Source: Chloroflexota bacterium (lineage in GTDB: Bacteria > Chloroflexota > Dehalococcoidia > Bin125). Taken from it: 64,000 nt of DNA. Of this stretch, positions 3,339-4,905 are shown piece by piece. Numbering within the stretch: the first letter of the stretch is position 1; each line of letters starts with the position of its first letter. The notes below the pieces were generated by a model. It searched no databases, was not told where the DNA came from, and was given only the letters and a program-made list of their open reading frames with translations. The stretch is taken from positions 124,001-188,000 of the forward strand of contig JAPPFB010000020.1 in the NCBI GenBank assembly GCA_028875225.1, read 5' to 3'. A program made the translations under genes and the position numbers.

Positions 3339-3370
3339 TCGGCTATCCGGATTTCATCCGGAGAATTCAT

Positions 3371-3467
3371 CCGTCCCCGCCTCTGAGCGGGGACCAGCTC
3401 TCCCGGGATCGGTCAGGCAAGCAGGTCCCCGCTCGGAGGCGGGGACGGAGCGTTCGCGGTGGCGGGG
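3371..3467. repeat. Repeat C, left pair (inverted plus direct copy) before the GIY-YIG gene
   Basis: The 25-bp block at 3371-3395 is the exact reverse complement of 3815-3839. A direct copy at 3424-3467 (GGTCCCCGCTCGGAGGCGGG and following bases) matches 3815-3859 with two substitutions and one single-base indel. The core is an imperfect palindrome (TCCCCGC...GCGGGGA). Together these copies bracket the GIY-YIG gene. Confidence 0.85.
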
Positions 3468-3485
3468 ACAAGACCAACCTTTGTC

Positions 3486-3788
3486 ATGAACCGCGAGGCG
3501 TACGTATACATCCTTGCGGGCAACAAGCCGCAGGACGGCCACCCGCCAATTTACGTCGGCTCGACCACCGACCTCGTTCAACGTGTCGCGTTACATCGTG
3601 ATGGTCAAGGCAGTCGGCACACTGCCAGATATCGGATCAGGCGGCTTGTCTGGTACGAGGTCCACGACTCGATCGACTCTGCGCAAGCAAGAGAGCGCCG
3701 TATCAAGCGGTGGGAACGAGCTTGGAAGGATGAACTGATCGAAGAGTTCAATCCAGAATGGCGGGACCTGTACCGCGAACTTGCGTGA
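3486..3788 (+). CDS. Small GIY-YIG nuclease
   Basis: A 100-residue single-domain GIY-YIG protein, the family of UvrC-like and homing-type endonucleases. The paired motif reads YVYIL (residues 6-10) and IYVGST (22-27), followed by the expected Arg33 and His37 and a Glu further on (ARERRIKRWERAWK). ATG at 3486 begins right at the domain; an upstream in-frame start would run into repeat C. Free-standing members of this size are common in bacteria and mostly uncharacterised. Both sides of the gene carry repeat C, which suggests that gene and repeat travel together. Confidence 0.88.
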   Translation: MNREAYVYILAGNKPQDGHPPIYVGSTTDLVQRVALHRDGQGSRHTARYRIRRLVWYEVHDSIDSAQARERRIKRWERAWKDELIEEFNPEWRDLYRELA

Positions 3789-3814
3789 ACTCGACTGCCA
3801 GGGCACCGGGAGCG

Positions 3815-3859
3815 GGTCCCCGCTCAGAGGCGGGGACGGAGCGTTCGAGGTTGGCGGGG
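3815..3859 (+). repeat. Repeat C, right copy after the GIY-YIG gene
   Basis: A 45-bp direct copy of 3424-3467, beginning 26 bp after the GIY-YIG stop codon. With the left copies it makes a unit of about 490 bp. No further copy was seen elsewhere in the window, although repeat A is similar in style. Confidence 0.85.
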
Positions 3860-3882
3860 GTTTCGCAGGCCGACGACTATCG

Positions 3883-4905
3883 CTATTCGCCGACGACGGG
3901 CTCGGGGAGGACGTCTAGGAGGCCGCCGAAGATTTCGGCTTCATCGTCGATCGGCGCGGTTTTGACGGGGCTGACGGTTCTGGGGATCCTGGGACGCTCG
4001 CTGAAGAGGGCGTTGAAGATTGATTCGGCGTGCTCGATGAATCCGAGTGAGCCGACGCCGTCGACGTAGATCGGACGGCAGTCGGGCAACTCGGCGGCGA
4101 TGCGGCGACCCATCTGGATGGGGTGGGATTCGTCCAGCATGGCGTGCCAAAGCATGACCGGGAACTGGATATCGCGCAACTCGAAGCCCCATGGCTCCAG
4201 GTGGTGTCGGGCTTCGTCGCCGGCTGCGGCGGGTCCCTGGCGGAAGGCTTCTCGCAAGTCGGTGATCCGGTTGGTCAGCGTCGGCTCCGAGCCGAGGATG
4301 GCGCCGTCGACCGGCGGCATCCGCTTGATCTGCTCGGCCACGACGCGTTCCGGTCGCTTTTGCACCGAACGTCCGTAGCCGCGCATCCAGAGCGAGGCGA
4401 GGCGTTGCGACTTGAGGAACAGGGTGTAGATCAGCCGCCATTCGTAGGACATGCCTTCGAGCACCTCGCCGGAGTCGATCGCGCCCAGGCCGGACACCAA
4501 GGCGACGCGATGCAGACGCTCGGGCATCTTCAGGGCGCAGGCGAGCGTGTACGGCAAGCCGGCCGAGATGCCGGCAACGGAAAATTTCTCGATCTCGAGG
4601 TAATCGGCCAGCTGGCGCAGGTCAGATGGCCAGTCAAGAATGTCGCGGCCCGGCAGCGGATCGGAGTAGCCGAATCCCGGTCGCTCCGGCGCGATCAGGC
4701 GCACCCCGGCGCGAGCGGCGCCGGGATCCATGACTGCAGCGGCAACGCGAGACGACGGTATTCCGTGATGGAAGAACAGCGGCTCGCCTCTGGGATCGCC
4801 GTACTCGGTCCAGCTCAACGTCCGGCCGTCGGCGAGCCGGACCTCGCTATGTGGCGGCTCGGGATCGTCGTCGGTGGTTCGGCTGGAGAGTTCGGCGGTT
4901 GTCAT
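3883..4905 (-). CDS. Alpha/beta hydrolase
   Basis: A 340-residue alpha/beta hydrolase-fold protein. The oxyanion segment is FFHHGIPSSR, the nucleophile elbow is GISAG with Ser114, and there is a late Asp (HAMLDESHP) and a C-terminal His (GFIEHAE), so the triad looks complete. The reading frame stays open 33 codons further upstream, but that part translates a repeat-B hairpin, so ATG at 4905 is chosen. No signal peptide is seen. The substrate cannot be told from the sequence. Confidence 0.88.
   Translation of the reverse strand: MTTAELSSRTTDDDPEPPHSEVRLADGRTLSWTEYGDPRGEPLFFHHGIPSSRVAAAVMDPGAARAGVRLIAPERPGFGYSDPLPGRDILDWPSDLRQLADYLEIEKFSVAGISAGLPYTLACALKMPERLHRVALVSGLGAIDSGEVLEGMSYEWRLIYTLFLKSQRLASLWMRGYGRSVQKRPERVVAEQIKRMPPVDGAILGSEPTLTNRITDLREAFRQGPAAAGDEARHHLEPWGFELRDIQFPVMLWHAMLDESHPIQMGRRIAAELPDCRPIYVDGVGSLGFIEHAESIFNALFSERPRIPRTVSPVKTAPIDDEAEIFGGLLDVLPEPVVGE

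Follow-up and report, generated by a model that had tools for sequence, protein, structure and literature searches.

The stretch of DNA analysed here, called the window throughout, comprises 64,000 nucleotides (64 kb) of contig JAPPFB010000020.1 from a Chloroflexota bacterium (assembly GCA_028875225.1). It contains a small gene (3486..3788, forward strand, 100 codons from ATG) for a GIY-YIG nuclease of 100 amino acids with an Slx1/UPF0213-like fold, bracketed by copies of one palindromic repeat. As set out below, genes of this family are in most cases framed by repetitive extragenic palindromes (REPs) with a CGTC tag, and gene and repeats together probably constitute a mobile element.

Organization of the window unit

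Three copies of the repeat accompany the gene. Copy a (CGTCCCCGCCTCTGAGCGGGGACC; 3372..3395, forward strand) has its CGTC end facing outward to the left, copy b (3424..3447, reverse strand) is inverted with respect to it, and copy c (3815..3838, reverse strand), whose GACG end faces outward to the right, frames the gene together with copy a. Counted from outer CGTC to outer GACG, the whole unit (3372..3838) measures 467 bp, with an identity of 0.96 between upstream and downstream REP. Copies a and b make up a head-to-head dimer upstream of the gene (3372-3447, 76 bp) that can form one long hairpin, in the manner of a REPIN (REP doublet forming hairpins). Compared with shuffled sequences, the DNA fold of this dimer scores z -9.6, that of the downstream copy c a modest z -2.2. 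The 20 bp past copy b (3448..3467, forward strand) recur after copy c (3839-3859) and complete a 45-bp direct repeat, which looks like a duplication made on insertion.

An earlier note on this DNA had described the nuclease gene between a direct pair of repeats and an additional exact inverted copy of 25 bp. These elements are real: the open reading frame (ORF) at 3486-3788 matches the GIY-YIG catalytic domain (PF01541, E 8.5e-13), the direct pair (about 3422-3467 and 3813-3859) differs by two substitutions and one indel within its 44/45-bp core, and the inverted copy (3370-3395 and 3814-3839) is identical over as many as 26 bp. The three copies had to be arranged anew, since the repeat proved to be an imperfect hairpin; they are now read as two head-to-head upstream and one downstream. 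No further copy exists in the window, in agreement with the same note, but six more lie elsewhere in the genome. A palindrome search of the window returned six strand hits, all from the three gene-side copies, where 0.18 would be expected, and none of 100 shuffles reached six. Chance clustering of repeats at this gene is ruled out by these shuffles and by the survey controls given below.

The nuclease

Residues Y7, Y22, R32, H36, E69 and N88 (counted from the residue after Met) are invariant in an alignment of 45 proteins; the active-site residues are retained. AlphaFold2 predicts, with confidence, one domain (mean predicted local distance difference test score 91). The top solved structures in a fold comparison are all GIY-YIG proteins, namely UPF0213 (1zg2), Slx1 (Z 7.2 over 88-95 residues) and At-HIGLE, then I-TevI and UvrC, with unrelated folds far below. 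NCBIfam holds no family specific to this nuclease. Slx1 acts on branched DNA (titles of structures 6seh/6sei), so that a hairpin or cruciform would be a plausible substrate of the window nuclease as well. Standalone prokaryotic relatives were assigned to the Slx1 cluster by Dunin-Horkawicz et al. (2006; PMC1564403), who also describe a GIY-YIG domain recently inserted, naturally and in frame, into the HsdR gene of Methylococcus capsulatus.

Two repeat families in the host genome

The window repeat has nine copies in the host genome (G000), including the three at the gene. A second GIY-YIG gene of the same family lies on contig C17 between copies of a hairpin of another type, CGTCATACCCGCGCTTGCCGCGGGTATCTCG, which stand one per side and in opposite orientation. 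At most three mismatches being allowed, this second hairpin occurs in 85 copies, while a reversed-pattern control gave 0. Many of the 85 are paired head to head, in dimers that measure about 96 or 147 bp and have unrelated spacers. Genome-wide copies and head-to-head dimers are the marks of REPs and REPINs.

The dimers of the second family (for example L214, L219, L225-L228, L230, L237-L239 and L241) fall into fixed length classes of 95-96 bp and about 143-148 bp. Their spacers are unrelated and their hairpin partners unequal (ATACCC with ATTGCC; ATTCCC with ATACCC).

CGTC hairpins flank this nuclease family

The flanks of related genes were surveyed in 80 loci from GTDB genomes, picked by protein similarity alone (alignment of six relatives), 77 of which had enough flank. 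Their hosts belong to Pseudomonadota, Thermodesulfobacteriota, Myxococcota, Planctomycetota, Nitrospinota, Elusimicrobiota, Chloroflexota, Campylobacterota, Bipolaricaulota and others. A CGTC/TGTC hairpin was counted when it lay at most 300 bp from the gene, and 115 other ORFs in the same loci served as controls. Such hairpins stand on both sides of 58/77 nuclease genes and 3/115 control ORFs, and on at least one side of 73/77 and 33/115, respectively. A pair with CGTC ends facing outward was found at 50 nuclease genes as against two controls. GTAG-tagged hairpins, in contrast, flank none of the 77 genes on both sides and four on at least one. Hairpin density is 7.75/kb in the nearest 150 bp and drops to about 0.5/kb at distances of 450 bp and more. 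In 46/77 loci, compared with 3/138 shifted positions, at least 14 bp match exactly in inverted orientation across the gene, and terminal inverted repeats around an enzyme gene, as expected of an insertion sequence (IS), are present in the survey loci. Repeats thus stand beside these GIY-YIG genes far more often than by chance, which the earlier note had proposed to check.

A sample drawn evenly, 141 genomes of one class, gave a similar picture, with hairpins on both sides of 19 of the 29 genes that had enough flank. Matches in a plasmid collection show the same arrangement in Neisseria, Azospirillum, Aeromonas, Neorhizobium, Shinella, Rhizobium, Sphingobium and Novosphingobium; it is absent from the Planktothrix match, and the Spirosoma match has no convincing matched pair. 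Matches on Sinorhizobium meliloti pSymB are dominated by a complex CCTC-tagged repeat. On this replicon and in R. tumorigenes (L065, L066), family genes adjoin a composite repeat, consisting of CCTC tags and two further hairpins, that is present in many copies on the megaplasmids.

The REP census of Di Nocera, De Gregorio and Rocco (2013; PMC3733652) distinguishes a GTAG superfamily, tied to REP-associated tyrosine transposases (RAYTs), from a CGTC superfamily, to which Neisseria dRS3 and Rickettsia RPE-4/RPE-6 belong and which "apparently lack a dedicated transposase". Members of the latter are described there by a CGTC (or TGTC/CCTC) tag, a stem of 8-9 bp starting with AT, a loop of 4-5 nt and a CCA tail, mostly in head-to-head dimers. 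Most survey hairpins beside GIY-YIG genes fit this published tag, stem, loop and CCA-like tail closely, and Azospirillum lipoferum, S. meliloti and Neisseria are common to the published list and to our loci. Both host-genome hairpins (9 and 85 copies) share the multi-copy, interspersed character of CGTC-REPs. The second host-genome unit fits in sequence, too (CGTC-ATACCCGCG-CTTGC-CGCGGGTAT-CTCG), but its tail is CTCG. The window repeat itself deviates: it has the CGTC end at 3372, yet three bases of the tag are paired with the opposite arm, there is no AT step and the loop is 6 nt long.

Nuclease and hairpin diverge together

Two hairpins of one unit are on average 88% identical, hairpins of different units 75%. 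In 72 units whose hairpins are matched, the more alike two nucleases are, the more alike are their hairpins (Mantel r 0.65, p 0.0005, ignoring shared host descent). Genomes with two genes (the window genome, G002, G014 and G009) carry two hairpin types. At the level of whole genomes, 21/28 with the gene and 28/113 without it show the general CGTC-REP pattern (141 genomes; p 1.4e-6), and at least ten copies were found in 9/28 versus 7/113 (p 6e-4). One genome, G151, has exactly two REP copies, both at its GIY-YIG gene, so that units bring their own hairpins along.

These data bear on the simplest alternative, namely that REPs merely gather in intergenic gaps where the nuclease happens to be an ordinary short gene with no functional link to them. 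REPs are indeed mostly intergenic, and both units of the window genome sit between convergent genes. Such passive neighbourhood is nevertheless already contradicted by the rarity of two-sided flanking among control ORFs of the same loci, by the bias toward outward CGTC ends and by the way hairpin type tracks nuclease type, and we attach next to no probability to it.

Occupied and empty sites

At the window site the unit lies between genes which we take to be a ThuA-domain gene and an alpha/beta-hydrolase gene. Among the 13 genomes of the genus with a ThuA ortholog that were examined, the window genome counted, it is present in two (G000 and G010). Three congeners (L047, L052, L057) show a bare junction, and comparison with them delimits the stretch they lack to approximately 3350..3884; the rest carry other repeats, terminators or, in L054, unrelated sequence. 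At the second host-genome site only G000 is occupied. Four genomes (G014, G006, G001, G005) are bare there, G010 holds one symmetrical hairpin (L245) and G004 a head-to-head dimer.

The convergent gap at the window site (3339-3882, and the orthologous sites L046-L057) contains different repeats in each congener, among them REP arrays, terminators and other palindromes, and so behaves as an insertion hot spot.

Sites with and without the unit, as the earlier note had suggested looking for, were also found in other genera. In Azospirillum lipoferum 4B a unit splits sufB from sufC, an operon intact in A. ramasamyi, A. oryzae and A. brasilense. In Sphingobium, strains MM7A and MM15 carry REP-gene-REP at a site where TYG72 and TYG65 have none. 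Empty sites are thus mixed, some holding a REP and some none. Rhizobium CIAT894 offered no usable empty site because of an adjacent IS.

Two further Sphingobium strains, TYG64 and TYG74 (L159, L161), contain a single symmetrical CGTC...GACG hairpin exactly where their relatives carry REP-gene-REP. This hairpin, like that of G010, looks like either a deletion scar or a target. Single symmetrical hairpins are rare, making up 2/572 tagged hairpins in the survey loci, while three inspected orthologous sites hold one; with 2/572, the symmetrical hairpin is unsupported as a general end state.

Several genomes carry the unit more than once. In G115 three copies at unrelated sites are 99.4-99.7% identical and have a truncated nuclease; these are apparently recent non-autonomous derivatives. 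They measure 342-378 bp, with terminal inverted repeats of about 58 bp ending TAGGGC...GCCCTA (L193, L194, L195). G027 contains about ten copies at unrelated sites, mostly 94-97% identical and in some cases interrupted by stops; the three copies in G177, again at unrelated sites, share about 95% identity. The G027 copies (L202-L212) are near 500 bp long; several have in-frame stops, many lie at contig ends, and extra sequence is found outside the hairpins. In the nuclease tree host phyla are intermixed.

Could the gene instead be a free-standing homing endonuclease with a REP target, invading existing REPs that something else has spread? GIY-YIG homing endonucleases are well known, REPs outnumber the genes, a REP or REP dimer occupies gene-less orthologous sites (Sphingobium TYG64 and TYG74; G010 and G004 at the second site), and the 45-bp direct repeat of the window looks as if an existing repeat had been duplicated along with 20 bp. 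We nevertheless regard homing alone as unlikely, for some empty sites have no REP (Azospirillum; L047, L052, L057), G151 has no REPs beyond the two at its gene, and multi-copy units travel with their own hairpins.

The distribution of the gene also speaks to a housekeeping role, in which a structure-selective nuclease would resolve REP hairpins or cruciforms and guard the genome rather than spread repeats. Slx1, a branched-DNA nuclease, and UPF0213 are the closest solved folds, and standalone prokaryotic relatives belong to the Slx1 cluster (PMC1564403). A guardian gene would hardly be patchy within a genus, placed at non-conserved sites, multi-copy and partly truncated in some genomes, and shared among intermixed phyla, which makes this explanation very improbable. 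REPs as mere terminators of the nuclease gene were rejected as well, a role at odds with their orientation, with the empty sites and with the multi-copy units.

Discussion

The genome comparisons document the association of nuclease and hairpins, their orientation, the cognate matching seen as co-divergence, the mobility of units and the existence of gene-less derivatives. We therefore consider it probable that the unit represents a REP-type mobile element that is autonomous, its small Slx1-like nuclease filling the position of RAYT in GTAG-REP systems. A minimal mobile cassette analogous to RAYT and REP had been proposed in the earlier note, and both the flanking survey and the empty sites support it. 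The same note had held that repeat copies lying mostly away from the gene would speak against the idea. Most copies are indeed solitary; since most REPs are solitary relative to RAYT genes, too, we do not count this against it.

The likeness to RAYT/REPIN is extensive: a single gene has REPs of its own type on both sides, REPs also occur elsewhere, singly or as head-to-head dimers, different gene copies have different REPs, and orphan REPs exist in gene-less genomes. The enzyme, however, is a GIY-YIG nuclease and not an HUH/Y1 tyrosine transposase, and the tag is CGTC, not GTAG. The arrangement works like RAYT/REPIN, and membership in RAYT systems is rejected because enzyme and tag differ. Slx1 and UPF0213 (YhbQ-type) proteins share the fold and, in UPF0213, the single compact domain; the window nuclease differs in having neither RING domain nor Slx4 partner, and the genes of its family are REP-tied and mobile. 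Free-standing GIY-YIG homing endonucleases (phage Seg-type) are small, patchy genes moving without an intron, as here. They are devoid of terminal hairpins and gene-less derivatives and usually have extra DNA-binding modules (NUMOD), whereas the window nuclease is a bare domain and window-type units possess both terminal hairpins and gene-less derivatives.

The element would consist of two CGTC hairpins, CGTC ends outward, around one gene for a single-domain Slx1-like GIY-YIG protein of about 100 residues. We infer that the nuclease recognizes and cuts its own hairpin and that repair does the copying. Recognition would take place once the hairpin is extruded, or single-stranded at a replication fork, and repair of the break against another repeat copy would spread hairpins, or the whole unit if the gene is present in the donor. 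The gene-less products of this spread would be solitary REPs and head-to-head dimers. Each hairpin being nearly palindromic, the stems of two outward-facing hairpins also repeat each other in direct orientation, and hence deletion between them may remove the unit and leave one symmetrical CGTC...GACG hairpin, as in TYG64, TYG74 and the second site of G010.

Several observations weigh against this interpretation. Clean target-site duplication was not seen at aligned sites of the window genus, Azospirillum and Sphingobium, the one 8-bp candidate being L209, and extra DNA separates the CGTC ends from conserved flanks in Azospirillum and at both window-genus sites. Roughly one family member in four does not have REPs on both sides, and many such genes belong to a single deep tree branch; seven of the 113 gene-less genomes are REP-rich (at least ten copies). 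The Mantel and genome-level correlations take no account of shared host history. Finally, cleavage of REPs by the nuclease is something we infer, and the nuclease alone would bring no joining chemistry.

For the spread of CGTC-REPs, whose enzyme has been missing, the nuclease is still a good candidate. A bolder proposition, to which we give slightly less than an even chance, is that behind the CGTC-REPs stands a large class of mobile elements, hitherto unrecognised and distributed over about ten phyla or more, of which these repeats are the traces. In such elements one hydrolytic structure-selective nuclease, with no transposase chemistry, would cut hairpins, and host break repair would spread units and gene-less dimers. 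In open-access PMC text we found no paper joining GIY-YIG proteins with REPs; a prior description elsewhere is possible, and it is a serious possibility that these elements move in a novel way.

Few repeats are as common in bacteria as REPs. The RAYT transposase of the GTAG half has been known since 2010; which enzyme serves the CGTC half, with Neisseria dRS3 and the Rickettsia RPEs among its members, is a question that the 2013 census did not resolve (PMC3733652). With a nuclease framed by these REPs, diverging with them and absent from empty sites, that question becomes one of a direct enzyme assay. Dunin-Horkawicz et al. (PMC1564403) asked whether more GIY-YIG proteins are molecular parasites; a REP-linked mobile nuclease would answer this, and it would give a likely role to hundreds of genes annotated just as "GIY-YIG nuclease family protein".
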